From Onchidella celtica (lineage: Eukaryota > Mollusca > Gastropoda > Systellommatophora > Onchidiidae), in contig OZ007579.1 in NCBI GenBank assembly GCA_963931925.1, positions 47,413,271-47,477,270 on the forward strand: a stretch of DNA of 64,000 bases, written 5' to 3'. Of the stretch, positions 1 to 36,373 are shown one piece after another. A program made the position numbers and the translations under genes. Each line of letters opens with the position of its first letter. Position 1 is the first letter of the stretch. Below the pieces are notes generated by a model that worked only from the letters and a program-made list of their open reading frames with translations, was not told the origin of the DNA and ran no database searches.

Positions 1-541
1 TAATTGTGTACTCTGTGTGTCTTGAGCATGAAATAATTGATGCATAATGGACTGATTGAAAATAGATTCTAAAATACACATATGTAATATTACTATTAAT
101 GACTTATTTGTTGTGTGATTTGTATTTGGCCCAGGTATTACTGTTACATAAATCTACCATTCTGGACATTCTCAATAATACTATTTGCATTGCTTTGATA
201 TGCGCTGTTGCTGTCAGTTTTACTCTTTAGTAAGCAAATTTGGTTAAACCTGATATCAGGCTTTTTGTGTCACCTTCACTGGTAAAATTATATCCAAACA
301 ACATTGTTTTTATATAAAACCTTATCAAAGGCTTTATCTGAGAACTTAATTTTATTTAAAATTTTTATCTTTTCTCTTTCATGGTCTGGGTCTGTCCCTC
401 TGAAAGTCAGATGTTAAGATTTATAATTTAAAGCGAAATATATAACCTACTACAGCACTGTTCTTGTGAACCACAGCTTTTAAGTGGGATTTTTGAAAAG
501 TAAACGCTAAAGATTCCTTTTTGCATTTTTTTCTCTTTCAG
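1..541 (+). other. Probable intron end (or upstream flank) with splice acceptor at 540-541
   Basis: This AT-rich, non-coding stretch ends in a strong pyrimidine tract (TTTTTTTCTCTTTCAG) whose AG lies at 540-541. That is a good vertebrate/invertebrate-style 3' splice site just upstream of the large ORF's leader. I infer that 1-541 is the end of an intron inside the 5' UTR of the gene at 1018. No coding exon is visible here. The true upstream exon and promoter would lie outside the window. Confidence 0.55.
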
Positions 542-1017
542 ATCTGATGAATAACCTTCACTGATGTATGCACAATGCGTTCATTTCCAAGATGTGATCG
601 TAAGTCCATGGCGGGATTGCAGAACATGCAATGAATGAGACACGCTTTCTGCCAAATTTCTCTCAAGCACCTGGTTGCAGGGAGACTATATGATTGTGCT
701 GATGCACATTAACCAGGCAGTTCTTTGATTCAGGCTCCAGACCTTCGCACTGAAGGCATCTAAGTACACTCCTGGATGCTGGAAGCTGAGAGCATTAAGC
801 ACCAGTCTAAAGGAAACAATGGGGAAGAACACAGCAAAGCTGATATAAAAAGTTAAGCATATTTATAGATAAAGTGCGCCAAAGTTTTGTGTCCAGAAAT
901 CAATGGAAAAGAGGGAACAAAACAGTGAACAGACCATTAGATCAAAGAAGAGAAGGTGAGGAGAAATATTGCAGCCTTTGGCGTTCATGATTCTTCGGAA
1001 ATCACAACTGTTCCACC
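542..1017 (+). promoter_or_regulatory. 5' UTR exon with five upstream ORFs, the last overlapping the main start
   Basis: The leader between the inferred acceptor and the main ATG holds short ATG-initiated ORFs at 547-564 (5 codons), 564-638 (24), 776-856 (26), 903-959 (18) and 987-1025 (12). The last overlaps the main ATG at 1018 in another frame. A TGA at 988-990 is in frame with the main ORF, so the coding region cannot simply extend upstream. A consensus donor (AAG|GTGAGG) lies near 955/956. If used, it would remove the main ATG, so either it is silent or there are alternative transcripts. Overlapping and multiple uORFs usually lower translation of the main ORF, so tight translational control is a reasonable inference. 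Confidence 0.5.
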
Positions 1018-4000
1018 ATGGATGAGCAAAGGGATGAAACATCCATGGCTGTGGATAAAATCTTGTCAGATCTGCAAAGTAGGAAAGAGCCCAGTAAAGT
1101 TGGAGAAATTGAGTTAAGGTCTAGAGAAAACAATACGGATACCGACAGTGTCAATCATCATAGAGAGGAACAAATTTCTGATGCATTTCAGCCATCTCTC
1201 AAGAGTAATGCAAAGTTACAAGAAAGTAACAGTGGCAATGGAGAAAATATTGAAGTGAAAGAGCCATCTGACAACCAGTCAAGAAAGATTGAAGGCTGGA
1301 ATACATGTGGGCAGAATAGACTAGGCAATGCAGACTTTGAAGGCATGCAAAATGCAAGTCAGTGCAACAGCAAAGAGGGCATGTCTACTGATGACGTCAG
1401 CAGAGAAGTGGTAAGATATGCTGCGACTGTATTATGTGGTGATGGTCTGGGCCCTCAACCAGGAGACAATCAAAGGGTTAAGGAGAAGCAGAATATGCAA
1501 CTAAGGTGGGAACCTCTCAGTATTAGTGACACTGAAAATAACAAAGACAGTGGTCAGTCTGTTAGTCCTGGTGCAAGTGCTACAGACTGCAGTATGGTTG
1601 AGCATGAAAAAGCAGACCAAATTACCAACACTACACAAATGACATCCACATCTCTTTCATCACTGCCAAACCATGCAAATAATTCCAAAGAAAGCGATAA
1701 TGTGATGTTACTTGTATCAGCAAAAAGTACAAGCCCTCATGAAAACCACTCTGTTGAGAAACCAAATACTGACTTAACAGAAAGTGAAGATATTGAAATG
1801 GATCAGCTTGATATTGCAAATACTGGTACTGCTGAACTTGCAGCTATGAAATCTGAGTTTCACACTCACTCTTTCAATCAGGACAATTCTGGCATAACAT
1901 TTCCCTCAAAATCATTCACATCCAACGAAGGAAAAGAGGAGAAATTGCCATTCTCTAAACACACAGTAAATGAGAATTCCAGCCACACAATAAACGAGAA
2001 TGCAGTTCCAAGCTCTGACACTTCAGATAGTGGTGACACTGAACAGGCTTCCCCGAGCACTGCAAACAGCTCAACCAAAATTTTGACAAAGTATGTGTAT
2101 ATCAACAAACCTGTAAAAACAAAGTCAGGCAAGAAAAGCTTTGGTTTATTGTATCGTCAGGCATTTCGACATTTTCATAAAGGGAAAGTGAGAAGTAAAA
2201 CTGTGAAACCGCAAGGAAAGAAAGAACAAGCTAGAAAACCACAGCCAAAGAACACAAAGAAGGCAGTCACTGCTAAGGTGAGAAGCAGTCCCAAGAAAGT
2301 GAAAGGGAAAACTCGACCTAAAGAGGAGGAAACAATCACTGTGGAAAGCGTGAGATCCACACGCAGCAGGACACAAAAAATGGAAGGAAAGAAAGTGGCC
2401 AATCGGCATTCAAAACGTAAGGAACCTGCAGCACGATCCAGTTCAGAACCAAAGAAGAAGAAAGGTAGGAGAAAACTTGTCACTCTAAAGGAGAAGGTGG
2501 CCATCATTGAGGCCATGGAGGCTTCAAATAATTCTGTAATGTCTGTTGTGAAAGATTTTGAAGTCTCCAGAACCAACATCTGGAGAATTATGAAGAAGAA
2601 GGAAGAAATCTTGGCTCAGGCTAGGGCGGAAGGAGAGAAAGTGGATAAGAAGAAGAAAAAAAAGAAACAGAAGAAAGTAAAGCAAGAGAGTGTGGAAGTG
2701 AAGCAAGAAATTGATGAAGAGTTGGGTGTCGCTGAAGGAGATGGAAATGGAAATGTGGGTGTTTTCTTTGGAGATGTATTCTCATGTCCAAATAGGAAAT
2801 CAGTCCTGCGGAACAGACGAGACCTGACGTTGGAGGAAAAAGTTCAAGTGATCAAATGTTTAGAAGCTCCAGGTGCAAGAGTGAGAGGTGTGGCTCGTAT
2901 GTTTGGGGTCTCATCATCTGCTATCAGCAGAATCAACAAAAATAAAGAATTTATCTTGTTGCGTTCAGTAAGTGGAGATAGTTGTGCGAATGAAAGAAGA
3001 AGTCGTGATTGTAAAGATCCAGAATTAGACAAGGCCTTGCTGCGATGGTTTCGTGCCATTGAACAAATGCAGTCTGATGGTTCACAGGTAGCTATTTCAA
3101 ACATATTGCTAAAATCAAAAGTACATGATTTGGCAATTACAATGGGGAAGGATTATTTCCCATCTGACAACTGGATTGTTCGCTGGAAACACAGACATAA
3201 TATTGGCTCAAAACCCAAGAGCAGTGTCACGTTGTGTATTCAGAGCAAGGAAGAGCTGCAAAAGTATGATGATAAGGTGGACATTGATGAAATTCTGAAG
3301 CAGCTGGGTAAAGAAGCTCAGCATATAGACCAGGTCAAACGGGAAGCTATATTGAAGCGGCAGGAGAAACCGGATGAGTTCATGATCTGTCCCCACTGTG
3401 GTGTTTTGACCAACACTAAGAAAAAGAAGCAAAATAACCATGTTGCTGGCTGCCCTTTGTCATCCAGCAGGAAAGATTTGACATTAGAAGAAAAGTATCA
3501 GGTGGTCCGGGCATTAGAACAGCCAGGAATGAAGATGATTACTCTGGCAAAGAAGTATGGAGTGTCAACATCAGCCATCAGCCGCATCAACAAAAACAGA
3601 ATTGATATTTTGTCCCGCCGAGCAAGTGGCCTGGCCAATGGCACCAGGAGGAGAGATCGGGGGAGCAAAGAACCCGAGGTGGAGAAAGTTTTATGTGATT
3701 GGTTCAAAGTTCAGAATGATTTGGGTATTCATATTTCAGGTTCTATGATTCGTGATAAGGCCAGGGAGATTGCTAAGCTAATGGGCAAAGACTTTTGGCC
3801 GTCAGAAAGCTGGGTATTCCGCTGGAGACATAGAAATAATGTGACTGAAATGAATCCACTGCTGTATGGTGAGAGTGAAGATGAAGAAGAGGGAGGGCTG
3901 GAGAGAACCAATGATACTGCTGAGGATGTGGCTGTGCCGAATTCTAGTGAGGAAATGACAGAACCAGCTGCAGCCAAAGTGGAACAGGAAGGAGATGATG

Positions 4001-5457
4001 CTATTGACAATAATGACTTAGATGGGAATGAGGGAAATGGTCGTAAAAAGAAGAGAAGCGAAGAAAATGAAGAAGCTCCTAGTGAAAAGCGATTTCGTCT
4101 TCCGCGCTCTGTCATGTGCGAAAAATGTGGATTTGTATCATTTAGAGTAAAAAATAAACGAATCAAAAGTCTTCGTCATGCCAAAGGTTGTCCCGATCAG
4201 AAACCCCGAAATGAACTTACTTATGAAAACAGGGCTAAAATTTTGAAGGCACTAGAGGAGCCAGGAGCTACATTGAGTTCTGTGGCTCGTGAATTCGGCA
4301 TCTCTGTGTCTTCCATGTCCAGAATGAATCAGCAGAAGGAGAGAATTTTGACCCATGGCCAGGACCACGGGGGACAGAAAAGAATCCGGGACTGTAAAGA
4401 GCCCGAAGTGGCATACAATCTATACTGCTGGTACATGGAAAAGAAAGCAGAAGGGATCCACGTCACTGGACCCAAACTGAAGGAACGAGCCAAGAAGTTG
4501 GCAGCAGAAATGGGACGAGAGTTCAATGCTTCCAGTGGCTGGTTGGGAAGATGGAGACACAGATATAACATCATTGGCTCTGCTAATCGTGGGGAGAGAG
4601 TTCAGAAAACACCGTCACTAAGAAGAAAGAGGCATAAGAAAAATATGGATGCTAAGTCAGAGTCTCCAACTGAACACCTGACACAACTTCAACCCATTCC
4701 CACAGACCTACATCAAGACAGTTTGGGAAGTCAAACCAGTGTGATTGTGGAACCACTGGAGCCAATACCACCTCCACCTCAGCCAGCAACAGTATTCCTT
4801 CACCAGCGGTTCCAGAATCCTTGGGATCTGGCTCAGCAACAGCCCAGTTCTTGTGTTTGGACCAAGGAGTTTATAGCACCAGGTCCCAGCACTCAGGAAG
4901 AGCCCATGGCTCCTGTGTCTTATGCATACACTGATACTGTTCCAAAGCCTGTGTTTCACAATATGTTTGACTCGTTCTCCACCATGGGCTACCAGGTGGC
5001 CATGCCTGTGGATTCCAGTATGGTAGGCAGGGACTATATGAAAACAGACAATGGGGAGGAAGCAGCAGGGCCTGGTGGTCACATGGCGCACAAGCCTCAC
5101 CCCTCCCACCAACAGCTCCCACATCATCACCGCACCAACCTCAACCCACCACATCTGCAGCATCACCCCGCCTTATCTCACCCCCACCCTCACCCCCATG
5201 CCAACGCCCTCATCCACCAGCCCTCACTTCCTCCACAGCCCCAGACATCACACCAGTTACCTCCTGCATCCCCTGCAACAGGAGAAGAGGATCCAGAACA
5301 ACAAAGACAAGTCATGGAAGCTTTCAAAATCATGAGTTCATTTGCAGCCAAGAAATCTTTGGGCGGCCAAGTCCAGGCTGCATTACGAACAATCGAAATG
5401 TCCATGAAAAATTCTTCCAAGAAACCAGCCTCACGACATACCTACACATCCATTTGA
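1018..5457 (+). CDS. Multi-CENP-B/Psq helix-turn-helix DNA-binding protein (pogo/Tigger-derived, no transposase domain seen)
   Basis: Single-exon ORF of 1479 codons. The ATG has a strong Kozak context (ccaccATGg) and an upstream in-frame stop at 988-990. Residues 1-350 are Ser/Asn/Glu-rich and probably disordered; 360-480 are Lys/Arg-rich. Four CENP-B N-terminal/Psq-like HTH modules follow at about 482-531, 600-650, 818-868 and 1064-1114; the middle two share LTLEEK and SAISRINKN. Modules 2-4 are each followed by a second CENP-B/Tc5-type helical domain ending RWxHRxN (666-729, 884-942, 1127-1185). Zinc-finger-like motifs precede modules 3 and 4: C791-x2-C794-x13-H808-x3-C812 and C1034-x2-C1037-x16-H1054-x3-C1058. 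A K7 run and two SUMO-type VKQE motifs (554-557, 561-564) lie between modules 1 and 2. The linker at 950-1015 is acidic; 1240-1420 is Pro/His/Gln-rich; 1422-1465 may be helical. Paired HTH domains are typical of pogo/Tigger transposases and CENP-B, but no DDE catalytic region is visible. I infer a nuclear, sequence-specific chromatin or transcription factor. I do not recognise a named orthologue. Confidence 0.9.
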   Translation: MDEQRDETSMAVDKILSDLQSRKEPSKVGEIELRSRENNTDTDSVNHHREEQISDAFQPSLKSNAKLQESNSGNGENIEVKEPSDNQSRKIEGWNTCGQNRLGNADFEGMQNASQCNSKEGMSTDDVSREVVRYAATVLCGDGLGPQPGDNQRVKEKQNMQLRWEPLSISDTENNKDSGQSVSPGASATDCSMVEHEKADQITNTTQMTSTSLSSLPNHANNSKESDNVMLLVSAKSTSPHENHSVEKPNTDLTESEDIEMDQLDIANTGTAELAAMKSEFHTHSFNQDNSGITFPSKSFTSNEGKEEKLPFSKHTVNENSSHTINENAVPSSDTSDSGDTEQASPSTANSSTKILTKYVYINKPVKTKSGKKSFGLLYRQAFRHFHKGKVRSKTVKPQGKKEQARKPQPKNTKKAVTAKVRSSPKKVKGKTRPKEEETITVESVRSTRSRTQKMEGKKVANRHSKRKEPAARSSSEPKKKKGRRKLVTLKEKVAIIEAMEASNNSVMSVVKDFEVSRTNIWRIMKKKEEILAQARAEGEKVDKKKKKKKQKKVKQESVEVKQEIDEELGVAEGDGNGNVGVFFGDVFSCPNRKSVLRNRRDLTLEEKVQVIKCLEAPGARVRGVARMFGVSSSAISRINKNKEFILLRSVSGDSCANERRSRDCKDPELDKALLRWFRAIEQMQSDGSQVAISNILLKSKVHDLAITMGKDYFPSDNWIVRWKHRHNIGSKPKSSVTLCIQSKEELQKYDDKVDIDEILKQLGKEAQHIDQVKREAILKRQEKPDEFMICPHCGVLTNTKKKKQNNHVAGCPLSSSRKDLTLEEKYQVVRALEQPGMKMITLAKKYGVSTSAISRINKNRIDILSRRASGLANGTRRRDRGSKEPEVEKVLCDWFKVQNDLGIHISGSMIRDKAREIAKLMGKDFWPSESWVFRWRHRNNVTEMNPLLYGESEDEEEGGLERTNDTAEDVAVPNSSEEMTEPAAAKVEQEGDDAIDNNDLDGNEGNGRKKKRSEENEEAPSEKRFRLPRSVMCEKCGFVSFRVKNKRIKSLRHAKGCPDQKPRNELTYENRAKILKALEEPGATLSSVAREFGISVSSMSRMNQQKERILTHGQDHGGQKRIRDCKEPEVAYNLYCWYMEKKAEGIHVTGPKLKERAKKLAAEMGREFNASSGWLGRWRHRYNIIGSANRGERVQKTPSLRRKRHKKNMDAKSESPTEHLTQLQPIPTDLHQDSLGSQTSVIVEPLEPIPPPPQPATVFLHQRFQNPWDLAQQQPSSCVWTKEFIAPGPSTQEEPMAPVSYAYTDTVPKPVFHNMFDSFSTMGYQVAMPVDSSMVGRDYMKTDNGEEAAGPGGHMAHKPHPSHQQLPHHHRTNLNPPHLQHHPALSHPHPHPHANALIHQPSLPPQPQTSHQLPPASPATGEEDPEQQRQVMEAFKIMSSFAAKKSLGGQVQAALRTIEMSMKNSSKKPASRHTYTSI

Positions 5458-6026
5458 TCATGAGGCGTATAATACATGTAGTTCATTTATTTATTTTTTT
5501 GGGTGAATAAGTGTTATTGTGTTGCATAACATTCAAAACTTTCATTATCAACTAATGAAAGTTTCTAATCTGCTGAATAATCTCTTCCCCCGAGACAGCT
5601 GCTCTACTACCTACTGTCACTGTAGAGATTCACCATGGCAGCACTAGCAGCGGGCCTGATTTTTTTGTATTAATCAGTAACTTTATGCTGAGAGCTCTAA
5701 ACTCACTGTTCCAGACCATTATTGAGATGGGGAAAAATAATAGTTTCTAGTCTTTCTGAACTTTTTCTTTTTTTCTTGGAAACGTGCTAATCTCATTGAC
5801 AGGGGACAGAAAAGCATCAGTTCAACAAAAAGTGAGAAACCCCCAATTTTTATTATCTCCCCTGCCCATTCCAGTTTCTATACACAGGCCACTTGTAGAG
5901 ATAAGCTCACTACACTATCCAAGTTACAGGGGCATTATGTGATTGCCCATCTCACATACTGGTGTATCAATAAAAATTTCCCCTATTACAGTAGAGCGTT
6001 TCAGTTTTGGTGAAAATGATATTTCT
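5458..6026 (+). other. 3' UTR / downstream flank with candidate poly(A) signal
   Basis: AT-rich non-coding sequence follows the TGA at 5455-5457. An AATAAA lies at 5969-5974, giving a possible short 3' UTR of about 500 bases. A later AATAAA at 11233-11238, followed by an A-rich run, could serve a much longer 3' UTR. Nothing in the sequence decides between them. Confidence 0.4.
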
Positions 6027-6459
6027 TGTATAGGTAGAATGCACATGACATCATAGGATGTTTTTGTTTTGTTCTTCCGCCACCAAAGATGGCCGGTGGA
6101 TCAGCTGATTAGTGAAATTTCGAGATATAATCTGTTAAAATGCCGGTTACTGTGATACATGTAATTGCATTGTAGATGATTGTTATGACAGGGGTGGAAA
6201 GGATGGATCCAAGCTGGTCAGATTCCCTACCATCCGTGTAAACAAGGGAAGGGAAGTGAAAGAATTGACCAAACGTCTCCCATTGAACATGTACACACGT
6301 GCCATTGTTTACTGTAGCGACCTACGTTTAGCTCGCTGGCGGTTGGTTCGTGGCTTGCAATGCAAATTAGCCAACAAATCAAAATCAGTGCCACAATCGC
6401 CATGGTGATGTGTGGGTCCGCACACTAAAGATGGCAGATATGCGCATTCTACCTGTACA
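6027..6459. mobile_element. Short inverted-repeat element carrying a THAP-like remnant
   Basis: The left end TGTATAGGTAGAATGCACAT and the reverse complement of the right end, TGTACAGGTAGAATGCGCAT, match at 18 of 20 positions. They define a 433-bp non-autonomous DNA element. No clear target duplication is seen. The THAP-like relic inside suggests a P-element-like or other THAP-encoding parent, which is an inference. Confidence 0.55.
6190..6412 (+). pseudogene. THAP-domain-like coding remnant
   Basis: One plus-strand frame reads RFPTIRVNKGREVKELTKR near 6220-6277. This resembles the middle of THAP zinc-finger domains (a hydrophobic FP/RFP core followed by a basic region). No start codon or complete C2CH ligand set is present in frame. 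It lies within the inverted-repeat element at 6027-6459, so I read it as transposon debris and not a host gene. The call rests on pattern recognition alone. Confidence 0.35.
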
Positions 6460-6614
6460 GTCAAGCATGTGGTAAAAACATTTCTGCTCATAATTTCAAA
6501 ACTTTTAAACTCATTTGCTATGGTAAGCTGAATATATTCGGCTTGTGGGTTTTGGCTTTGCCGCGCATAGCGAAATATTTGGCTTGAGTGGACATCGAGT
6601 TTCTAGTACTAATA

Positions 6615-7374
6615 CAGTGCACTCTCCCGATAACGACATGGCTCGGGACCAGAGGTGCATGTCGTTATCGGGAACATGTCGTTATTCGGAGATTTTCAAG
6701 ATGGCGGAAAAAGGGGTGTGGTTAGACCCTTAGAATGTAACGTACCAACCATAGTGGGTGATCAGTGATCGGACTTTCCAAACATGTAAAATACACGATG
6801 TGTTGTGTGTGTTGTTTTGTTTTTTTTGTTTGTTTGTTTTTTTTGTTGTTGTTGTTTTTTGTGTGTCATTTTCCCTCTGTTGTTTATCCGGGCTTGGGAC
6901 CGGCATGAGTGCAGCTGTATTTAATAATACAACTGAACACATGGCCACATTAAAAATGTTTTTTTTTTTTGTTTTTTTTTTTGTTTGTTTGTTGTTGTTT
7001 TTTTTAAACTAACAGTCGGATTTCGATTTAGGGAAGAAATCCATAATCCCGGTCTGTCGCTTGTTGCTGCAAATCATAGGGCCGACTTTATCTTCCATCT
7101 GATGCAACAAGTCGAAAAGAGATGCACCATCCTTATGTTGCAGTGCAAACCGTCTGAGAGTTTGTAGTGCCGAATTTGCGTCACTACCCGTGACAAGAGG
7201 GGCAGCTTCATTGCTAACTCAATGTCGTTATCCGGAGAGTGGTCTAATAAGTATGTCGCTATTTAGAGAGTTTTATTACTAATAACATATAGTAAAAAAA
7301 TCGGGACCGGGAGTCAATGTCGTTATCGGGAGAATGTCGTTATTCGGAGATGTCGTAATCGGGAGAGTGCACTG
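6615..7374. mobile_element. Pogo/Tigger-like MITE with TA target duplication and repeated terminal motif
   Basis: The 760-bp element is bounded by TA (6613-6614, 7375-7376). Its ends are CAGTGCACTCTCCCGATAAC and, reverse-complemented from the right, CAGTGCACTCTCCCGATTAC. TA duplication and CAGT-starting ends with a CGATAACGACAT core are typical of the pogo/Tigger branch of Tc1/mariner (family knowledge). The core motif ATGTCGTTATC or a close variant occurs about eight times, clustered in the first 90 and last 170 bp, so the terminal motif is iterated subterminally. No transposase ORF remains. Internal T-rich runs lie around 6810-7005. Confidence 0.8.
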
Positions 7375-7376
7375 TA

Positions 7377-9114
7377 TCTAATCCAACTTTTCGAAGTACA
7401 AAATATCATTATCAAATCGTGTCCTAGTTCAATGATTTTCCTTTACTTTGATGTATAAAATTGTTATGTCGTATGTTGATACTGAGTGAAAGAAAATGAC
7501 ATCTTTGAAGCACCCATAAGTGTCATATATCGATGGTGTTGAGAGTTCCTGTCCACACATACAAAAGTTTCCATGGGGAATGAGTTAAGATTTAATCATG
7601 TGCCACCCTGTCAGAACATACATCTCACAGTGGTCAAGAGTACGTTTCCTATAGCTCAAAATCTTCTAGTATCAAGCCAATACGTGGGATTTTGACTGGT
7701 TATTTTAGCAGAAGTTGGATTTCTCAGTTTTGGCAGCGTATTTTTTACTTGATGTGCAGATTGTTAATACACACAGTACATGTATACATGTTAGCTTGTT
7801 CTATGGGGGAAGAGATCATGCACGCTTTGAGACAAAACTTGTCTTATATGAAGCAAACTTTCTATGTATCTCAGGGCAATGTAAATAAGGACATATTTTA
7901 TCTATTATAAATTCCTAATGTGAATCAATCAAGAGTGTGGAAAGTGTAACACGTGTAAAATATTCATATATATATATTGGGTAGCACATATTTTGTTATC
8001 AGGCATTTTTTTTTTATTTCTTTCATAATTCAGATTGAATGATTTATTGTTAATATTCCATTGCGGTTTAAATCTTTGCAACTCTTTTTAATATTTATGT
8101 TCTGTTGTGAGTGAAAACTTGGACTTATTCAATCCATTGTCGCTAAAAATTGTCTCATGACAGACAAGTACAGAAATTCACATGCGGTTGGTTTGATATG
8201 AATTGGTTGATATATCATGTTGTAATGTACATATAGGTATTTTTCATGATTTCCTAGCATAGTCAAATGAAATTCTGGTGAAACCCGAAGAGAAAGTGAA
8301 ACAGTGAAAATGCACAAAGATGTCAAACCAAGATCAGGTACTAATGTCTTCTGTCACTCAGAGAGTTTGTTTCATCTATCTTGACATCAACCATCTGCTG
8401 AATGTAGCTTTTTTGTTAAAGTTATACATCCTGCGTATTATACATCTGAGAGTGGGAAATCCCCCCAAAATCAGTGTACTACATTTAACAGAACTTTAAG
8501 AAAGCTGAATCTTGACCGGTGGTTTTTTTTTTTTGCTTCTACTTCTAGCTGTATAAGTAAATGAAAAATCAGCGAGATCAAATGCAAACAAGTTCTTGTC
8601 ATCAAGCTTAGTTAATGGTTGTCAGTGTATTAACCAAACTTTGTTAAATTGCATGGAAGAGATATATGAATGATCAGTCTAGGAGTACTTTTTTGATGCA
8701 CTGAGTGGAAGACGTACTCAAAGGCACATGTCATATAATAAAGTGAGTTTGACTTTTATGCCTCATTCTGTTGTACTGAGCAAATCATGTGGAAGCCAAA
8801 GATAACACACAAAAAGTATAGTTTTTTATCCCTATTGTACAATGTGATTCGAGTTGACTTTCTTTATGTTGACATCATGTTTTGCGGTTGGTATTTTATC
8901 CATTTGATTAATGCAGTTCACTCTGTTTTTCACTGTTGTCTTTTATTGTACATGGATGCAACCCCGTATGAATCTAATGTGAAATGGTTGAGTGACAATT
9001 TGTATATGGGAATAAATATAAGTATAAAGAAAAAAGACAATTGACCGGAAGTTATTGAAATACAATTAAGTTTCAAATCTCACTAATGATTTTCATTACT
9101 TTAGTATTGAAATA
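7377..9114. other. Non-coding AT-rich stretch, no recognised feature
   Basis: No coding potential or clear repeat structure was seen beyond short T-runs (for example near 8007 and 8521). An ATAATAAAG near 8736 could be a poly(A) signal for a long 3' UTR of the upstream gene. Confidence 0.4.
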
Positions 9115-21590: not shown

Positions 21591-22073
21591 TATATATACC
21601 TATATATAAGAGAGGGTAAAAGAGTGATGCGAGGCGGGTGATTGAGAGAGATATGTGAAGGCGAGAGAGAGAGAGAGAGAGAGACAGAGAGAGAGAGGGA
21701 GAGACAGACAGACAGACAGACTAAGAAAGAACGAGAGATAAAGAGAAAGAAAGAGAGCTCACAGTCAAATACGCACATAAACACACACACACCACCCACT
21801 TATCACATTCATAAACACACACTCACGAACACACAGTTACAAATGACCTAGTTCCAGACCGACAAATTCCCAGGTCAATTGACATTCTATTCAGAACTGC
21901 AGACTGGTCTTGGACAAGTTTGGGGCCTCATAAAGCTAGAGGCCTACTCGTGGCGTGGTCTTCTCTGGTACAATCATTGACTGTATTGTACCATTTCTCC
22001 TTCAATCTCACCACTTTTTTTGGTCCTAGATGACGTCGTGTACGTAAGCGGATACTGGTATAGGCGGAAAAAT

Positions 22074-22663
<590 letters not shown>

Positions 22664-23068
22664 CCCTCCCCCCTTTTCCTTTTCTGCCACTTTCCTTCCA
22701 TTTGATATTATAATTTCAAATGACTGAAAAAATCAAAGTGAGATGTTGTTTTCAGGTTATTTTATGGAACCCATTAATTCATTCCATTTAACATTACTGG
22801 GACAGATGACAGAGCTTGTGAAGTGACGTAGAGCACCATTTGAGAGAGACCATCAACTTCACAGAGATCGATAAATCTAGATTACTGTAGGAATGTACCA
22901 GGCCAACTATTGATCTCTATGTAATTGTTTTTCGCACATGGTCCAGGCGTCAGGACTGTGATAGTTGTCACATGATGCTCACTCGTGAAAAACTGAACGG
23001 TCGATTGACGTTTGTAATGTTTACTAGGCAACGACCGCAGGAGTTTATTGTAGGCTTTGAGCCATGTG

Positions 23069-23311
<243 letters not shown>

Positions 23312-24220
23312 ATTTCCTGTTTATCCATCTATCTTTCCATCCATACACCCACCCGTCCGTCATTTACCAGCGTTACACATTAGTCAGCCTACCGACCTCA
23401 CTCCAGCCTGTACTTTGACCACCCCATCAGACTTACAGCATTTTAATAATAAAAAGCAACAACAACAAAACTGGGTTGGCGGAAGGATGGGCTGTACGCA
23501 GCGGGTGAAAGCTGCAGTGGTGTGGGCACAAAGAGAGTTTGTTACGTGTACACATACACGATGTTTTTGAACATTCTATATCAAAATACAGCCTGTGTAT
23601 GGAAGAAAATTATTATAATATTAAAACTAGATCTAAGCCCCCACGATTACTAATAAATATCATTTGAATGAGATTTTGGCAGTGGGACCCTAAAAACGAT
23701 ATTCAATAAAATGTGTATAAAATTTATAGATTATTATGTTTGCCATTGACCGAGGCGAGGAATAGAACTTCCTATGGCGAGGTGGAAAGTTTTCCAGTTT
23801 TGGAGGTGGAGGGATTGGGGTATTTCTCTCTGCTATCACAATTCTAGTATTTTATGGTAAATTTATTATTAAACTTTAAAATGAATTATAACATTAATTT
23901 GATTTAATACTGAATTTTAAAATAAATTATAACATCAATTTGATTTATTACTGAACGTTAAAATGAATTATAACATTAACTAGATCAGTGTCTACTGTTG
24001 TGGCTTTAGACTGAGACTGTTGCTGTATACAAACTTTCATTTCAGATTAATGTCTCCCATTATTTGTATTGTGAGTTGTGTACTGCGCCCAACAGGCTGC
24101 GTCACAATTTGCTCTGAGATAGAGAGAGAGAGAGTGAGCGAGACAGGGAGAGAGAAAGAAGCAGTGTAGTGTGCTGAGCGCTTCGCCGACGCTCCATTCT
24201 CCTCTGTGGTTGACAGGTTT
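23312..24220. other. AT-rich stretch with a 3 x 41-bp tandem repeat
   Basis: There is no gene. At 23872-23985 a 41-bp unit (core AAATTATAACATCAATTTGA) is repeated three times with a few substitutions. Confidence 0.55.
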
Positions 24221-24224
24221 CTTC

Positions 24225-24313
24225 TGCATTTTAAAAATGGATATGCGCTATATAAAATAATAATAATAATAATAAATAATAATAATAATAATAATAATAG
24301 TAATAATAATTTT
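24225..24313 (+). mobile_element. Probable SINE/LINE 3' tail (GCGCTATATAAA + ATA repeat)
   Basis: ATGCGCTATATAAAATAATA runs into an (ATA)n tract. The same arrangement (GCTATATAA or GCTGTATAA followed by ATT/ATA repeats) is seen at 44785-44835 and 57112-57207. Such tails are widespread at the 3' ends of invertebrate SINEs and their LINE partners; assignment to a family is an inference. Confidence 0.4.
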
Positions 24314-24604
24314 CTTAAAAGGAGCATTATATTAGAAGTTGGATCATTGTAAGAAAATTGCTTTTTACAAGTAGCCTACCAGTTAAAACGTGGATAACTT
24401 GTCACTTTTATTGTTGTCACTTGTTGTCGTCGTTCTAGTTGTTGTTGTTGATGAAGATGATGAAGACATCCCTAGTTGATCAACGAAGACTGCAGCAGCA
24501 GCAACACCAACAGCAACAGAGTACGACCCAAATAATTCTAATGGAAAAAAAAAATGCTGTAATCAGGGGACGGTAGTATCTTACATCGTGAGCCATTGCG
24601 AGAC

Positions 24605-24835
24605 CCGAGACACAGAATACCGAGACGGACCATTCCTTCTTTCACTATATGTCCACAACTTGTGCGCGTGTAAACACGGTGAGTACTACTCATAGAGCTC
24701 TGTGGTACTAGTCGTTTTCGTTCAGTTATGAAGGGGGTGTGGTGCGAATTGTTGCATTGCTGGCATGGATGGTACGCGCACAAGCCGGCGGACGGAAAAT
24801 GATGAATTGGTCCGTCTCGATATCCTGTGGCTCGG
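24605..24835 (-). mobile_element. MITE family P, copy 2 (inverted relative to copy 1)
   Basis: The ends are CCGAGACACAGAATACCGAG and, from the right, CCGAGCCACAGGATATCGAG. The interior matches 18395-18622 in reverse orientation, including AGAGCTCTGTGGTACTAGTC. The flanks give no clear duplication. Confidence 0.65.
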
Positions 24836-25124
24836 GTGAACACAACTGAATATGTTCTCTAATTTGCTTTGTAGTTTAGTCTGCCATCCTTAAAAAGAGC
24901 CAAAATATTTTTAAAAAACGTTTGCCTCTCACCCCTTTTGGCGTCGGAATATTTGTCGTTTCACTCAAGGGATAATTAATAATATGTGTGAATGGATCTT
25001 GAGAAATCGGGCCTAAGGTGAAGTATTTATACCTTTAAAAAAAACCAAAATTAAATCATTTTATGTCTTCCCCCTCTCTTGTTAGTCCATCGGGATCCGG
25101 TGATGACGTTGTTTCTCTGCTCTC

Positions 25125-25625
25125 TTACCGATGACGGCGCCTGTGGCTCCGCAGACCGAAGCTGGAAGCACACAGGTGCCCGCAGGTGTCGCATTGAAAG
25201 TTTGTATTTTGGACGAGGTGAACGCTGCCCTGTGACGTCTGCCGCTTGCTGCAGCGAGCCGCTGTCGCCCATCCTCATCAAAAGCAGTGGTTGCCTTGGA
25301 GGTGAGAGACCTCCATCCTGATCTATTGGAGGCACACGCTTCCAGCTGGCGTGGCTGAATGCCGCTCCACTTGAGGTTGTTTTTCAAGATGTCCTTGTAC
25401 CTCAGTTTTGGGCGTGCTTGTTTGCGCGAACCCTCTTTCAGCTCTCCTTACATGACTTGTCTGGGGATGCGGCTGTCATCCATTCGTACTACGTGGCCTG
25501 TCCAGCGAACCTGAGCCTTCAGCAGCATCGACTCAATGCTTGATGAGCCAGCTCTGTCTAGCACCTCCTGGTTGGTGAATCTGTCCTGCCAGCGGATGTT
25601 CATAATCATGCGCAGCGATCTTTTT
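25125..25625 (-). pseudogene. Degraded non-LTR retrotransposon: reverse transcriptase C-terminus plus C2H2 finger
   Basis: On the minus strand the frame entering at about 25625 reads NIRWQDRFTNQEVLDRAG, then SMLLKAQVRWTGHVVRMDD, SRIPRQVM, an in-frame TAA (25448-25450), GELKEGSRKQARPKLRYKD and NLKWSGI. This is the conserved segment after the reverse transcriptase core in many animal LINEs. A frameshift then leads to FQCDTCGHLC...LRSHRRRHR and a TAA at 25125-25127, a C2H2 finger (C-x2-C-x12-H-x4-H) typical of the extreme C-terminus. It is 5'-truncated, as is usual for LINE insertions. The stop plus frameshift mark it as dead. The exact clade is not assigned. Confidence 0.8.
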
Positions 25626-26254
25626 GATGTGATTGCAGAAAAATGGCTAATCTTTCATTTTTATAAGTAAATTTTAGTTTCCATACAAAATTGTTTCCCC
25701 TTTGAAGGGGATTCCTCAGGAATTTGGTCTTTCACGTTCAGCCCGATTCCGCCAGATCCACTCACATTATTTACAATTTCAGACAAACCCTACCCCTCTT
25801 GGACCTCACTAATCCCTCTCTACTTCCTGGAAAAACCAGCCCCATCCTTCTAGATAGTCTGCACGCCAAACTGTCTTTCCCACTCTCTGAAATCACACTC
25901 ACAGACGCAGTGCTGTTCTCAATGTTTCCGCTCGAGACGTCTCTAAAATAAAAGGCATCAGACACACAGACTAAGACAGCAAAACATGATTTAACCAGTT
26001 GGATCACGCAAATCTTAACGACACAAATTTGCAATTACCATTTCTGTTTTCTCTCTTACCCCTCTCCCTCGACTAAATCCTTATTCAAAATGTCTCACTC
26101 TGCCTCCCAAAGGCGAAAAAACATCGTAACTGACAGAATGGCCTTTTTCTACTTTATTGTGCCTGGTTACAAGAACGGTCCCTTACTTTGGTTTGCCACA
26201 TAAGAAACTACTGTTTCTGTGGTAGATACGTCTTTCTGACTTTTACAAGGGGAC

Positions 26255-26512
26255 AGGGTGGTCTAGAGGCAATGTGCTCGCCTCTCATGCCAAGAGACCA
26301 GGGTTCAAAACCCGGCTGGTAAAGGCATGTTGGAAGATTTGGGATTTTTCTCATATTTTCGTGTCCCTGATCCTATTAGGGGGTTGGGGGGGGGGCAGGA
26401 TGAGCACCTAGTCTTCTCGGATAAGGATGAAAAAATTCGGAGGGACCGTGTGCACCTTGCTCCTTGCTTACCAGGACTGACTTCAAAAGCCCGTAGTTGA
26501 AGCCACATTAAT
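26255..26512 (+). mobile_element. tRNA-derived SINE
   Basis: An A-box region (GGTGGTCTAGAGGCAATGTG) and a B box (GGTTCAAAACC) sit at tRNA-like spacing. They are followed by a non-tRNA body reading GAGGGACCGTGTGCACCTTG and GTAGTTGAAGCCACATTAAT. A minus-strand copy of the same head is at 53495-53605, which supports a dispersed Pol III family and not a tRNA gene. Confidence 0.75.
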
Positions 26513-27690
26513 CATTTAAAATACATATTCTTTAAGCTGTCCACCCTGGCAAATTCCAATTAACATGAAATTGCTCTCTCCCAGCAACTCGCTGGTTGAC
26601 CTGTAACTATTCAGAGTCCCCTCCCCGTTCATCTAAACACAAGGCTCTCGGAGCGATTTTTGCCTTTAGAGATTCCTCTTAAAGAAATCATTAAAGAACA
26701 AAAAACAAACAGGCAATCAACCAGTTTAATCTTTTCAGGCAAATTCTGACTTGTGAATTGACTTCCCAACCCTTCCCACCAATGCCACAGTTTTCCTTCG
26801 CCATCTTTCCCATCGTTCCATATTTCTGTGTTCTATTGAATGTCAAGCGGCGCATGCTGGCACGTCTTTGTGGCTTCCGGCGAAAAAAAAAATTCTCCTT
26901 ACCAATTTTAATTGATTGCACTCGCCAACAGCGTAGAATGTAATTAAGTTTTGTTTTATGTGCGTGGTTAATCTTTTCTGTTTTTTTTTCACGATAGTTA
27001 ATGGTTTTATGGCAACCTGCAACATTGGGTTTTCCATAGGTGTGGCAATAAAGGTAAACATTGGCAGTAACTGGCATAATGACGTCAATTTAAAGTAAGG
27101 AAGTTATTACAAGTACGTAAGTCCCCCAAGATTTTTGCGCTAGGGGTACGTCTTTTAAAGCCCTTTGTGACTCCAGAGCTCTAGAGCTCCTCCCGAAATG
27201 CTCCTTGACGACGGCTTTAATTCATCATCATCATCATTGCCTTTCTCACCCTGGATCAGGGTATAGGCCACCAACAAACACTTTCCATCCCTCTCTGTCA
27301 TGGGCCAGCCTCTTTACATTATTCCAAGTCTTTCCGCTCCGTTGCACATCATTTATTTAATTAATCATGATTAATTATTCGTTTAGAGTTTTTTGTTTGT
27401 TTTCCTCCTGTTTTTTTGGTTGAAAGGTAAGAAGGCAGGGTTAGGGATTCGATAAGATTTAAGGTCGAGGATAATGACGGGGTTAGTGATAGAATGTATA
27501 TGTACGTGCCCCTTGCGCAAAACGCTCGGGGTGCTTACGTAGCCTACTGATAACAACAGCCCTAACGTAAGTAATGATAAAATCATCGTCAGGGTAAATA
27601 AATATAATGTAGGCATTTTCCCCCAGATTTAAATGCAGTCAGTTCCATAACTCTCATGACATTGAGACGAATAACATAAATGAGTTGATA
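26513..27690. other. Non-coding stretch, possible retroelement tail
   Basis: No gene is recognised. CATCATCATCATTG near 27226-27239, followed by CACCCTGGATCAGGG, resembles the ATC-rich tails of some LINE/SINE insertions read on one strand, but evidence is thin. Confidence 0.3.
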
Positions 27691-27905
27691 CATCTTTCTC
27701 CTCCTGTCTGTCTATCTGTTTGCCTGTCAGTCTGTCCGTTCCTCTGTTTATCTGTCTTTTTCTCTCTCCCCCTCTCTGTGCCCCGCCCACCCCATCTCTC
27801 TGTGCCTCTCTCTGTCTCTCTGTCTCTCTCTCTCTCTCTCACTGTCTGCTTGCCTAACTCTCTCTATCTCTTCTATGTCCCTCTTTCTCTCATTCTCTCT
27901 CTTAT
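27690..27905. repeat. (TCTG)/(CT)n low-complexity tract
   Basis: Pyrimidine-rich plus strand with TCTG and CTCTCT runs. The overlapping open frames are compositional. Confidence 0.85.
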
Positions 27906-28439
27906 GAAAAATCTTCAGCACAGAGCTTCTGTTTTCGTAGAAAAACAACTTCAGTTTTTTAGGTCAACTCGGAGTCTTTTCACTGCAACAGCTGAATAAT
28001 CTCCAAGACTGATGGAAATGAAACATTTTGTCTCTATACTAAAAGAGATATTTTCATTTATAATGGCAAGATGGCAACGATTTGCAAAGTATAATTTGTG
28101 ATTACCAGTTCCCTGTGATCTATCGATTACTAGCAATGCTTTACGCTGCGGAAGCTGAAAGTATCGATTTAGACTTTGGGTAAATACATTCATTTTAAAT
28201 TGGGTGATTACTCGCTGCTGATGGAAGAAACGACTGGCTTAACGGGAAGTAATGTGGGTTTTTTGGACGGCCTTTGTCTTTGATCTGCACTGCTGAGCTT
28301 GTGAATGTTTGGGGGGTGGACAACAATAGACTTAGCTTTGTTTGGGTAGGAACAGGTGAGGGCGGGGGGCGGGGGGTGGGGGGTGGTGGGGAGGTGCCTC
28401 CATGGTTGGGGTTGAACATTAAGGTATAAAAGTTGTATT

Positions 28440-28723
28440 AGTTTTGGTTAGTTTTTGTCACTGCTGCTGTTGTTGCAGCTGTCGAGCTTGTTGACATTCT
28501 TACTGTTCTTGGCAGTGTTGTAATTATCACTATAGCAGTTCTCGATTTGGTTAATGCGCCCACTTTTGTTGTAGTTTTTGCTATTGCTGTTATTGTGGCA
28601 GTTTGTTGCAGTCTTGTTCGTGTGCCGACTGTTGTTGTTGTCGTTGCTGTTGCTGTTGTTGAGTTTGTTAATACACACATTTGATGTTGTTGTTGCAGTT
28701 GTGGAATTTATTTGTATGCGCAC

Positions 28724-28766
<43 letters not shown>

Positions 28767-28835
28767 GCTGCTGCCGTTGGTTTTGTTGGTATTGTTTTTA
28801 TCGTTATTGTTGTTGTGATTGTTCTTTGTGTTATT
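28440..28835. repeat. GTT-rich degenerate trinucleotide tract
   Basis: The plus strand is dominated by GTT, GCT and TGT triplets, including a clean (GTT)n run at about 28722-28766. It leads directly into the 27-bp array. Confidence 0.75.
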
Positions 28836-29632
28836 GTTCTTGATGTGATCACTGCTGTAATGGTTCTTGATGTGATCACTGCTGTAATGGTTCTTGATGT
28901 GATCACTGCTGTAATGGTTCTTGATGTGATCACTGCTGTAATGGTTCTTGATGTGATCACTGCTGTAATGGTTCTTGATGTGATCACTGCTGTAATGGTT
29001 CTTGATGTGATCACTGCTGTAATGGTTCTTGATGTGATCACTGCTGTAATGGTTCTTGATGTGATCACTGCTGTAATGGTTCTTGATGTGATCACTGCTG
29101 TAATGGTTCTTGATGTGATCACTGCTGTAATGGTTCTTGATGTGATCACTGCTGTAATGGTTCTTGATGTGATCACTGCTGTAATGGTTCTTGATGTGAT
29201 CACTGCTGTAATGGTTATTGATGTGATCACTGCTGTAATGGTTCTTGATGTGATCACTGCTGTAATGGTTCTTGATGTGATCACTGCTGTAATGGTTCTT
29301 GATGTGATCACTGCTGTAATGGTTCTTGATGTGATCACTGCTGTAATGGTTCTTGATGTGATCACTGCTGTAATGGTTCTTGATGTGATCACTGCTGTAA
29401 TGGTTCTTGATGTGATCACTGCTGTAATGGTTCTTGATGTGATCACTGCTGTAATGGTTCTTGATGTGATCACTGCTGTAATGGTTCTTGATGTGATCAC
29501 TGCTGTAATGGTTCTTGATGTGATCACTGCTGTAATGGTTCTTGATGTGATCACTGCTGTAATGGTTCTTGATGTGATCACTGCTGTAATTGTTCTTGAT
29601 GTGATCACTGCTGTAATGGTTCTTCGTGTTAT
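28836..29632 (+). repeat. 27-bp x 29 minisatellite with a GTGATCAC palindrome in every unit
   Basis: GTGATCAC recurs from 28845 to 29601, exactly 28 intervals of 27 bases with no indels. The remainder of the unit is TGCTGTAATGGTTCTTGAT. I noticed only two substitutions, a C>A near 29214 and a G>T near 29590. The array is flanked on both sides by a related GTTCTTYGTGTTATTGTTCT. Because 27 is divisible by three, several frames stay open for over 330 codons; these are not genes. Confidence 0.95.
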
Positions 29633-29649
29633 TGTTCTTGATGTGATTG

Positions 29650-30815
29650 TCAGGGTTAGTCTTGTAATTGTCGTGCTGGGTCACGACTTGTTTTTTTTTG
29701 TCACGGTTTCGTTGATTTTAACCAGCGGAAATGTCCTTGAACTGTTTTCGTGAACAGTTTGTTTTTGTAACGCTTTTTCTTAGAGATGGAAAGAAAGTGG
29801 GGCAAGATAGAATAAATGGATAAATTAGCAGTGACGGTGCAGTTCTCGACCCCGTGATTTTGATGAACTCTAACAGGGGTGAGAAAAGGGAGATAGTAAA
29901 TTCGTACATAAAACGTAGAGGGTTTAGAGACTTTAGGAAGGGTTTTGACATGTTAATTTGCAGCCGGCCGCACAGTATATAAGCGCAGCCATTCCTATGT
30001 TTGATCACTCCATGCAGAAATATCCATCTGTGCAGGCGGTCGGCGGGATTCTGCCAGAAGAATCAGAAGACTGTTATATTCATGTCTATGTCCTTTATAG
30101 ACACTGAAATGAGACCATACGCTATTTGTGAGAATTATCCACTGCTGTTATCCATTGTTCCCTGATTTCTGATCAGGGACCAAGTGTAAGTGTCTGCCTG
30201 TTGATTCAACAATGAACGTGAAGCTGACCTTAATTTTCCAGTAGGAGTGCTACCGAAGAATGCAAGACTTCCATGTACATTAGCTTGCAACTAGATCTAG
30301 CATGAATGTCTGGTATACACATTTGTAAATTGAAATTGATGTGTCTGGATGAGGCTGGGGATTGCCAGCCCATCCTAGAGCAGATCTAGATCTAACTTAA
30401 CTACGTCAGTTTGTATTGACGAGTTTGATCCATTATAAGCGGTAGGCACAAATAACTGAGATAACATTGTCGTCTGAGACATTAGAATATTATTTGTTAG
30501 ATAGTAGATAAGTAATACTTAAATTGTGAGTGAGACAGAATGATATAATCTTTTAGGAATCTAGAGGAGACTTCTAGTGACATATTATTGAATTTTCATT
30601 TGATGCTGCTGATGTTGTCTTTTTAATATGTAAGAGCTAGACGAAATTGTTAGGGAATAATAAGTAAATAAATTTGTGGCCCTGCAGGTCTGTTGATACA
30701 AAAATTCAGATTGTTATTAGTATGTGGCATGGTATGAAAGTGTAATTCCTAAATACCTCTCGATTTTTAAATGCAGTCGTAACACCTACAATTCCTTAAT
30801 ACCCAACTCGTAACA
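29650..30815. other. Non-coding stretch, nothing recognised
   Basis: Ordinary AT-rich sequence between the 27-bp array and its displaced fragment. No gene or repeat boundary was seen. Confidence 0.35.
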
Positions 30816-30862
30816 GTGATCACTGCTGTAATGGTTCTTCGTGTTATTGTTCTTGATGTGAT
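30816..30862 (+). repeat. Displaced 47-bp duplicate of the 27-bp array's 3' edge
   Basis: These 47 bases are identical to 29601-29647, from GTGATCACTGCTG through TTCTTCGTGTTATTG to GATGTGAT. They lie about 1.2 kb downstream of the array in the same orientation. Confidence 0.85.
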
Positions 30863-31584
30863 CACTTCTGTTGGTGTTTGTCAGTGTTATCGTTCTTAAT
30901 GTTATTGTTGTTGTTGTCGTTCGTCGATTCTGTTTGTGAAGTCTCTGATGTTGTTTATCAGGTTGCTGCGGTGGTCACATTTTGTTGTTTTTATAGTTCA
31001 AGACGATGACTGCAACAATACCGGCATACCCGGGCCTCAGCGTCGAAGTTAAAATGCCACGGCTTCATCTCTACTATGAGAGACAATACCTTTGTTTGAT
31101 GAATTTTGACGTCACCAGATCTGAGGCGCCACAAAACCTTGAATTTTGTTTCTTCTTTCGTCGGGGAGTTCCAAGACCATCATGTTTCATTGTCCTAAGA
31201 TTTTCTCTTCTTATTATTTTTTGGACCGAAGCATGTTTAGCTGCAGTGTCTCCTCCTCTGCCGCATCCCCCGCCCGCCCCCCCCCCCCCCGGAAAAACCT
31301 TTACGAGTGTCCATGCCCAGCCGCCGTGCACTGGGGGACGGGAATGCCGTGCAATCAACATCACAATCTAGGGTGACCTAAGTGAAAGAAACCATTACGG
31401 TGTGGCGAAGTCCTGTTTCGTAGACTAGAGCAAATTGCGTTATAACGTACAGCCCTGTTAGTGGACCGCTCTTCGAGACTAAGATCGAACAATTTATGGT
31501 AATATGGAATCCTTCTGGGGTCTTAGATCAATGGACGTACTTGGCGTGCAGTCTTATGCGTTCGTGGGGTGTGGAGATCAAAAT

Positions 31585-32093
31585 AAGGTAAGATTAGCTT
31601 AGATTTATGTTAGAGGGAGGTTAAAGAAAAAACCTATAAGATTATATTAGATTTAGGACAGAAATTGACTCTAACAAAAGATAAGATTAACTTGAATTTA
31701 TGTCAGGAATTGGTTTTAAAAAATGAAAAGGGGAAGATTAACGTAGATTAAAGACAAACTGGTTTAAAACAACAACAACATAAGATTAATCTAGATTTAC
31801 GACAGAAATGGACCCAAAAAAAACAAAACAACAACAACAAAAAAACAAAGAAACAAGGACAACAAGATAAGATTAATTTAGATTTACGTCAAGAATTGGA
31901 GGGGAAAATAGAAAAAAAAGAAACAAAAAAAAAAAAGATAAGATTAAGTTACATTTATGTCAGAAACTGGTAAAAAAAACAAAACAACAACAACCGATAA
32001 GATTCGTTTAGATTTACGACAGAAATTGCTTAAAAAGAAAGAAAGAGAGAGAGAGACAGACAGAGAGAGAGGGAGAGATAGAGAGAGACAGTC

Positions 32094-32124
<31 letters not shown>

Positions 32125-32440
32125 GATAGACGGTGAGAGAGAGACAGACAGAGGGAGAGAGAGAGAGAAGATTAACTTAGATTTACGACCAAAGTTGGCT
32201 GAATAAAAACGAAAAGATAAGATTAACTTAGATTTACGACCAAAGTTGACTGAATAAAAACGAAAAGATAAGATTAACTTAGATTTACGACCAAAGTTGA
32301 CTGAATAGAAACGAAAAGATAAGATTAACTTAGATTTACGACCAAAGTTGACTGAATAGAAACGAAAAGATAAGATTAACTTAGATTTACGACCAAAGTT
32401 GACTGAATAAAAACGAAAAGATAAGATTAACTTAGATTAA
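31585..32440 (+). repeat. Decaying array grading into a 51-bp tandem repeat
   Basis: AAGATTAACTTAGATTTACG-type units recur throughout. At 32168-32440 five nearly identical 51-bp units carry GACCAAAGTTGACTGAATAA and ACGAAAAGATAAG. Upstream units (31585-32030) are spaced irregularly and diverged, with A-rich (AAC)n or GA-rich insertions; a GA tract occupies 32035-32165. This gives a visible gradient from old to recently amplified repeats. Confidence 0.85.
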
Positions 32441-32980
32441 AGAAAGAAAATTAGTTAAAAAAACAAAAAGAAAAAAAATCAAAAAAAAACATCGGGTGAA
32501 AAACTCATCAAAAGTCGAACTTTAGCCAAAGAACAATGTTTCGCTTCAAATATTATTTTAGCCAGGCTTGAGGTTAATATATTGACTCTTCAAATAAACC
32601 TATTTCAAATTCTAACTTTAACCTAAGATTATTCTGAGACGATTGTGTTTATTTGGAGCACCTCGCCCCTGATTTCTTCCCCAACGCCAGCACTGCTGAT
32701 TTCCTTGTACAGAGCTAGCTACTTAGGCCTACTCTAATGGGGTTCTTTTGTTAAAGATGAAAGAAATCTCTCTCTCTCTATCTCTCTCTTTTTTTTTTTT
32801 TCAATCGCTCTTGATTTATTTTGTTCCTTTGTGCCTTAATTGATTCTGTTTTTTTCTACAAACTACATGATTGTTTACTTTCGATGTCATGGAGCATTTT
32901 GGGTCGTCTAGGAAACGCTCAGTATTGAATGTTTGTTGTGTATGTGTTTCACGTCATTTTTCAGGATAATGAGTTTATGC

Positions 32981-33586
32981 AGAGAGTTTGTAAGTATGGA
33001 CCCTTTTCATTTAGCGTCCTCCATATCACGTGATTTGCAAAAAAAATGGCGGCGTGCCTCATTTGTAGGGCGGAAGCGATGGACAACGGTCAAACCATGC
33101 TATCCTCTTGTTGGGCACCCAACTGTACAAACCCATTACGTGCTGGTTCTGGCATAAAAATGCATCTTTGCTTAGACTGTGCACATATTCAGATGCCATC
33201 ACTAAGGCAAGTTGAGGTTTTTGCCCCACACGGTGCTTTTCGATGCCGTGCGGCTCCCCGCAAACAACCGTAACGCGGAAGTGAAAAGGGTCCATAGAGA
33301 AGTTTCACTTTTGATCGATATGCACTGCGAGACACGGGGGTCGCCGCGAAACCACTGTGAGCACGGAGCGGAAAGTAGAGACTTGCGGTAAACAACACAC
33401 TGGGTGTAAGAGTTTACAAAACGGTTATAAATAGTTTCAGTCAGCCCAGAAATATGAACAAACCACAGTAAACAGATATGCCCACTATCTTTGGTGAAGA
33501 CGGTCTCTTTCAATTCTTGTTTACCGCAGCGACCTATTTTCGCGATTTGGCGGAAGTGAGATCTCTCTATAAATACATACTCTCTG
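32981..33586. mobile_element. MITE family O, copy 2, interrupted by another MITE
   Basis: It starts AGAGAGTTTGTAAGTA and ends CATACTCTCTG. The interior shares CACTGCGAGACACGGG, CCGCGAAACCACTGT, AACAAACCACAGTAAACAG and TTGTTTACCGCAGCGACC with 14870-15228. The flanks GTTTATGC and GTTTGTGT form a diverged 8-bp duplication. The left arm is split by a 298-bp insertion at 32997-33294. Confidence 0.72.
32997..33294. mobile_element. Nested MITE with a THAP-like remnant
   Basis: The ends are TGGACCCTTTTCATTTAGCG and, from the right, TGGACCCTTTTCACTTCCGC, flanked by TA on both sides. Removing it restores the left arm of the family O element. Plus-strand codons at about 33102-33155 read SSCWAPNCTNPLRAGSGIKM. 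This resembles the N-terminal CxxxxC start of THAP fingers, so the autonomous parent may have encoded a THAP protein (an inference). Confidence 0.65.
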
Positions 33587-33711
33587 GTTTGTGTCAGACA
33601 CATAGGCTTGGGATTGCCAGACTCACGAGTGAATGTCAAGGCCTAGGCGGTAAACCAGGCAAATTTGATAGGTCAACTAGTTAATAGTGGCGTCACGATA
33701 GTGGGTGAAGG

Positions 33712-34126
33712 CAAAGATAGTAGAAACAGTAAGGTGAGACAGCCAGCGCTTTTACTTTTAGCGTGCACAGATTTCGCACCGCCACCTAGCGGCGAATGCG
33801 CGGAAGTCACGAACAATGGAGTAGTTTACATAATCAAAAAGGGAAAGTCCGAATTTTGTTCTCTGTTCAGTTATTACTGTAGACCTTGATTGGCATCACT
33901 TATTACTTCAATCGCTGTGGGAAAATATTCGATAGTTTTTTTGTGTTTTTTTGGTCACAGCAGCACTGTCACAAATCAGCATCATTAATTTATCATTATA
34001 CCAAGTATTCTTTTCATGCTGTGCGCCATGGGCCCCGCCCCACGATCAGCGCGCAAACTGTGCGCACGATTTTTTTAGAGGTGCGAAAGAAGGGAGTGAC
34101 TCATCTTATCGTTTCTAGCATCTTTG
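33712..34126 (+). mobile_element. MITE family A, copy 2, with perfect 8-bp target duplication
   Basis: It is flanked by GGTGAAGG on both sides (33704-33711 and, directly after TCTTT, 34126-34133, with a one-base ambiguity in the end position). The inverted ends are CAAAGATAGTAGAAACAGTA and, from the right, AAAGATGCTAGAAACGATAA. It shares CACCGCCACCTAGCGGCGAA and GGGCCCCGCC with copies 1 and 3. Confidence 0.78.
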
Positions 34127-34164
34127 GTGAAGGTGAGAAAACCCAGCTAGCTGGTGCGCAGTCT

Positions 34165-36102: not shown

Positions 36103-36110
36103 AGATGAAC

Positions 36111-36193
<83 letters not shown>

Positions 36194-36211
36194 CGAGACA
36201 GATTGAAAGGT

Positions 36212-36305
<94 letters not shown>

Positions 36306-36313
36306 TGAAAGGT

Positions 36314-36366
<53 letters not shown>

Positions 36367-36373
36367 CAGATAC

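Follow-up and report, generated by a model that had tools for sequence, protein, structure and literature searches.

Four tandem psq motifs are carried by the Drosophila transcription factor Pipsqueak, each of them a single helix-turn-helix (HTH) without a Tc5 half or fingers, whereas the DNA-binding domain of human CENP-B (PDB 1hlv and 1bw6) is a bipartite unit, in which CENP-B_N is joined to a Tc5-type HTH. A serial arrangement and bipartite units occur together in a gene of the mollusc Onchidella celtica, located in the 64,000-nucleotide stretch of DNA analysed here (contig OZ007579.1, positions 47,413,271 to 47,477,270; hereafter the window). Its open reading frame (ORF) lines up a half unit and three full bipartite units, and a Pfam scan of it revealed neither a DDE domain nor any other transposase core. 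The ORF probably encodes a multivalent host nuclear DNA-binding protein built from several pogo/Tigger-type (CENP-B-like) bipartite units, and we infer that the gene descends from a transposase.

According to the accessible part of PMC7386202, CENPB contains CENP-B_N/HTH_Tnp_Tc5, DDE_1 and a dimerisation domain, and is one of 12 pogo-derived vertebrate genes (CENPB, JRK, JRKL, TIGD2-7, CENPBD1, POGK and POGZ). These carry CENP-B_N/HTH_Tnp_Tc5, BrkDBD/HTH_Tnp_Tc5 or HTH_Tnp_Tc5, each has kept its DDE domain in full, and POGZ (about 1200-1410 aa) has seven to nine zinc-finger motifs. The O. celtica protein resembles them in having pogo-type DNA-binding units in what would be a host protein and, in comparison with POGZ, finger-like motifs. 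It differs from them in its serial array, with which no DDE domain was found, and repeated DNA-binding units are not mentioned in that part of the article. Unlike CENP-B itself, it also gave no CENP-B_dimeris match (no Pfam family at E <= 1 in its C-terminal 293 aa). Mukherjee and Moroz (2023) reported 121 metazoan CENPB transcription factors, proposed to be transposon-derived and expanded in molluscs (PMC10027918), and the present gene could be among them. In the accessible text, most Octopus CENPB members bear BTB/POZ, whereas no BTB/POZ match was obtained in a Pfam scan of the whole O. celtica protein; that text, figures and supplements apart, does not mention several CENP-B units per protein. 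No description of a serial bipartite CENP-B array without DDE was found in the literature searched (figures, supplements and most subscription papers apart). The component parts are already known.

Domain content and order

Pfam profiles were compared with the whole protein (maximum E-value 10) and then with each module separately (E <= 1), the Pfam cut-offs being 21.2 bits for CENP-B_N and 22.2 bits for HTH_Tnp_Tc5. In the whole protein, HTH_Tnp_Tc5 matched three stretches (E 1.4e-32) and CENP-B_N four (E 1e-27). When the modules were scanned singly, all seven domains scored above the cut-offs, in the order CENP-B_N then HTH_Tnp_Tc5 in three of the four modules (2-4). The protein is organised as follows:

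1018..5457, plus strand: intact ORF of 1479 aa, ATG to stop, start in CCACCATGG context
1018..2454, plus strand: N-terminal 479 aa, without meaningful Pfam match (one row, E 0.36)
2467..2619, plus strand: module 1, CENP-B_N helix-turn-helix alone, 37.7 bits
2809..2958, plus strand: module 2, CENP-B_N helix-turn-helix, 38.6 bits
3019..3213, plus strand: module 2, HTH_Tnp_Tc5, 29.4 bits
3388..3453, plus strand: C2HC finger-like motif CxxC-x13-HxxxC, residues 791-812, directly before module 3
3466..3612, plus strand: module 3, CENP-B_N helix-turn-helix, 27.0 bits
3673..3846, plus strand: module 3, HTH_Tnp_Tc5, 54.8 bits, predicted fold match to CENP-B
3847..4116, plus strand: linker between modules 3 and 4, first part net acidic
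4117..4191, plus strand: C2HC finger-like motif CxxC-x16-HxxxC, residues 1034-1058, directly before module 4
4201..4353, plus strand: module 4, CENP-B_N helix-turn-helix, 22.5 bits, barely over the 21.2 cut-off
4417..4572, plus strand: module 4, HTH_Tnp_Tc5, 42.9 bits, predicted fold match to CENP-B
4576..5454, plus strand: P/Q/H/S-rich C-terminal 293 aa, without Pfam match at E <= 1

An initial reading of this DNA (the original prediction) had proposed four repeated HTH modules of CENP-B/Psq type, three of them with a second, Tc5-type domain, and finger motifs preceding modules 3 and 4. The profile scans bear out the number and make-up of the modules. Concerning their type, CENP-B_N was found in all four, whereas HTH_psq was absent from all four per-module tables (all rows at E <= 1, the HMMER filters discarding most matches with E above about 0.1). 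The designation "CENP-B-type" is therefore correct and "Psq-type" is unsupported. Like Pipsqueak, the protein has HTH motifs from the CENP-B/transposase superfamily in series, but none of its modules is matched by HTH_psq. In module 1, no HTH_Tnp_Tc5 half was found in the per-module scan, and a Lys-rich stretch comes next. The CENP-B DNA-binding domain was the best match by sequence and by fold, the predicted fold of module 3 being closest to it and that of module 4 also matching CENP-B.

The two predicted fingers are indeed present at the motif level. CxxC occurs nowhere else in the protein, and two such motifs were obtained in only 1 of 20,000 shuffles of it. The first has a predicted strand-strand-helix, at a low predicted local distance difference test (pLDDT) score of 43-47. 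No Pfam zinc-finger family scored above its cut-off for either motif (best row Zn_ribbon_ISL3, 14.7 versus 25.5 bits), and the fingers are therefore regarded as sequence motifs only. Outside the modules, the linker between modules 3 and 4 has hardly any predicted secondary structure, with pLDDT below 50 nearly throughout; residues 1-300 are net acidic, residues 401-500 are strongly basic, and the C-terminal 293 aa constitute a candidate effector region.

Module duplication, constraint and gene model

Every module pair outscored all 300 of its own shuffles. By local alignment, identity was 48% between modules 2 and 3, 39% between 2 and 4 and 38% between 3 and 4, compared to 33%, 32% and 34% between modules 2, 3 and 4, respectively, and the CENP-B domain. 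As modules 2-4 are more similar to each other than to CENP-B, internal duplication, as originally predicted, is favoured over separate captures, although a comparison with a single outgroup falls short of a phylogenetic test. Module 1 is 46%, 35% and 29% identical to modules 2, 3 and 4, and 29% to CENP-B, so that the case for its duplication would rest on its similarity to module 2. Modules 3 and 4 share a finger-plus-bipartite unit, which suggests that this unit was duplicated; module 2 is without the finger motif and module 1 without the Tc5 half. The putative recognition helix SxSAISRINKN is almost identical in modules 2 and 3 and differs in modules 1 and 4.

Nei-Gojobori comparisons between modules gave pN values of 0.36-0.46 and pS values of 0.66-0.86, with dS infinite in five of the six pairs and 1.61 in the remaining one, i.e. 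at or near saturation. The protein similarity has persisted past the synonymous similarity, which points to long selective constraint on the modules, without yielding a ratio. Selection had been argued from the integrity of the ORF among transposon remnants. The ORF is intact over 1479 codons, its open frame beginning at 991, upstream of the ATG at 1018, whereas 60 first-order Markov simulations of the first 9 kb produced stop-free frames of up to 202 codons, and the apparent constraint on the modules points the same way.

The CCACCATGG sequence around the ATG is presumably a good initiation context. Two further features, identified by pattern, flank the coding region:

526..541, plus strand: candidate 3' splice site, polypyrimidine tract followed by CAG (pattern match)
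5969..5974, plus strand: candidate poly(A) signal, the first AATAAA past the stop codon, before the first downstream inverted-repeat element

The candidate splice site suggests an intron in the 5' untranslated region (UTR), preceded by an exon beyond the start of the window. The predicted gene model would have a spliced 5' UTR, the entire coding sequence in one exon, and a short 3' UTR; fifteen ATGs within 541 to 1018 and a single consensus-like splice donor inside the ORF, at 2275, count against so simple a model.

Missing nuclease and surrounding sequence

The prediction that the protein has no transposase core holds for the ORF and for the plus-strand stretches scanned around it. A stop-masked Pfam scan of the plus-strand frames of 1-21656, 24001-36902 and 44001-63802 revealed no DDE or other transposase core, and hence no downstream DDE exon in these stretches, and as a positive control it recovered the HTH domains of the ORF. 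The intervening and terminal stretches (21657-24000, 36903-44000 and 63803-64000) are rich in tandem repeats, although not wholly repetitive. No second copy of the ORF is present in the window. Among the 25 longest of the 47 inverted-repeat pairs in 1-9000, which includes 1017 bases upstream of the ORF, four pairs span the ORF, with arms of 17-22 nt and 73-82% complementarity, and none is convincing as a flanking pair. Near-identical copies with inverted repeats, the mark of an active transposon, were thus not seen in the window.

These observations bear on the alternative that the ORF is part of a transposable element, encoding an accessory DNA-binding protein or the partner of a separate transposase, and has stayed intact through recent transposition and not through host selection. 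The transposase-type DNA-binding units, the length of the uninterrupted ORF and the inverted-repeat elements located less than 2 kb downstream would all fit such an origin. However, besides the lack of a convincing flanking repeat (among the 25 longest pairs in 1-9000), of a second copy in the window and of a transposase core in the scanned frames, the modules are at or near synonymous saturation inside a single intact ORF, and we consider this alternative unlikely.

The surroundings had been described as dead transposons. Two short inverted-repeat elements downstream of the ORF and a pair of sequences resembling a short interspersed nuclear element (SINE) bear this description out in part, whereas no Pfam transposase core was found in the scanned frames. 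The first element (6027-6459, 433 bp) has 20-nt arms that are 90% complementary, and one of its frames resembles a decayed THAP domain by eye, for which Pfam gave no match. The second (6612-7377, 766 bp) has 28-nt arms that are 96% complementary, with TA at both ends followed by CAGTG, and it resembles a non-autonomous pogo/Tc1-type element. It holds all 7 matches of TCGTTATCGGGAGA in the window (at most 2 mismatches), where 0.25 were expected. The SINE-like pair (26251-26460 and 53414-53609) consists of two tRNA-Pro-like sequences with a tail, about 72% identical and on opposite strands, and is probably a tRNA-derived SINE. Ten longer ORFs elsewhere in the window gave no meaningful Pfam match.

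The second element, 1.15 kb downstream of the ORF and with its clustered TCGTTATCGGGAGA matches, raises the alternative that the protein serves in host defence, its several heads reading the terminal repeats of pogo-like elements or of their miniature inverted-repeat transposable elements, which it would silence. A protein with several binding modules would be well matched to repeated sites. However, nothing links the protein to TCGTTATCGGGAGA, the proximity may be due to chance and the pogo identity of the element is only presumed; in addition, no known silencing domain was found with Pfam in the N- and C-terminal flanking regions of the protein. Such a role is, in our view, improbable.

A third alternative is a satellite- or centromere-associated protein acting like CENP-B on tandem repeats. 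Among solved structures, the nearest relative of the present protein is the CENP-B DNA-binding domain, a set of binding units would be apt for tandem arrays, and several minisatellites are present in the window, but the CENP-B box is not in excess there and the C-terminal region is without a CENP-B_dimeris match. In oomycetes, according to the accessible part of PMC11267843, the motifs bound by CENPB and Psq family proteins (GTTTAAC/GTTAAC) show no enrichment at centromeres, and such domains therefore need not act at centromeres. We regard this alternative as distinctly improbable.

The tandem repeats of the window (82 overlapping rows in Tandem Repeats Finder) include a 5-kb minisatellite at 37791-42789 (39-bp unit, about 130 copies), which is strongly strand-asymmetric with a G+A-rich plus strand. 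Two very homogeneous minisatellites, at 28829-29624 (27-bp unit x 29.5, 99% matches) and 59712-60496 (52-bp unit x 15.1, 96%), have several open frames, and homogeneous arrays are also found at 43434-43866 (34-bp unit x 12.8, 99%) and 32164-32438 (51-bp unit x 5.4, 98%).

Lastly, a relic that is decaying or not expressed, or else an incomplete gene model whose DDE exon lies ahead of the window or within one of the three stretches outside the scan, could be proposed from the missing Tc5 half of module 1, the missing finger of module 2, the donor-like site at 2275 and the mere 1017 bases of the window before the ORF, but with 1479 stop-free codons, a consensus-like start context and constrained modules it is highly improbable that the gene is a relic, and the same holds for the partial model.

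Proposed mode of DNA reading

As a multivalent DNA-binding protein of the host, the product would work through its units, each full bipartite unit gripping one site of roughly CENP-B-box length, while the flexible-looking linkers would let the units occupy separated sites. High-avidity binding to composite or repeated DNA may result, or the bridging of distant sites. Given the near-identical putative recognition helices of modules 2 and 3 and the different ones of modules 1 and 4, the array probably recognises a half-site that recurs, together with variant half-sites. The N- and C-terminal regions would recruit partners, so that the protein might serve as a transcription factor or in organising chromatin; alone it would be unable to transpose DNA. 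More specifically, and only tentatively, it may be a dedicated multivalent reader in which a finger-plus-bipartite unit was duplicated serially once catalysis had been lost, the modules now differing in part in their specificity and jointly recognising long composite or tandem-repeat sites.

If this is true, such a DNA-reading scheme parallels the arrays of C2H2 fingers in its logic, with CENP-B-type units as the bricks, and a serial array without a nuclease would show that these units can multiply like zinc fingers. As the modules are short and separable, their specificity is directly testable in vitro, and the array would allow one to ask, in a natural setting, whether modules of the CENP-B type join up to read longer sites or instead bridge sites that lie apart.
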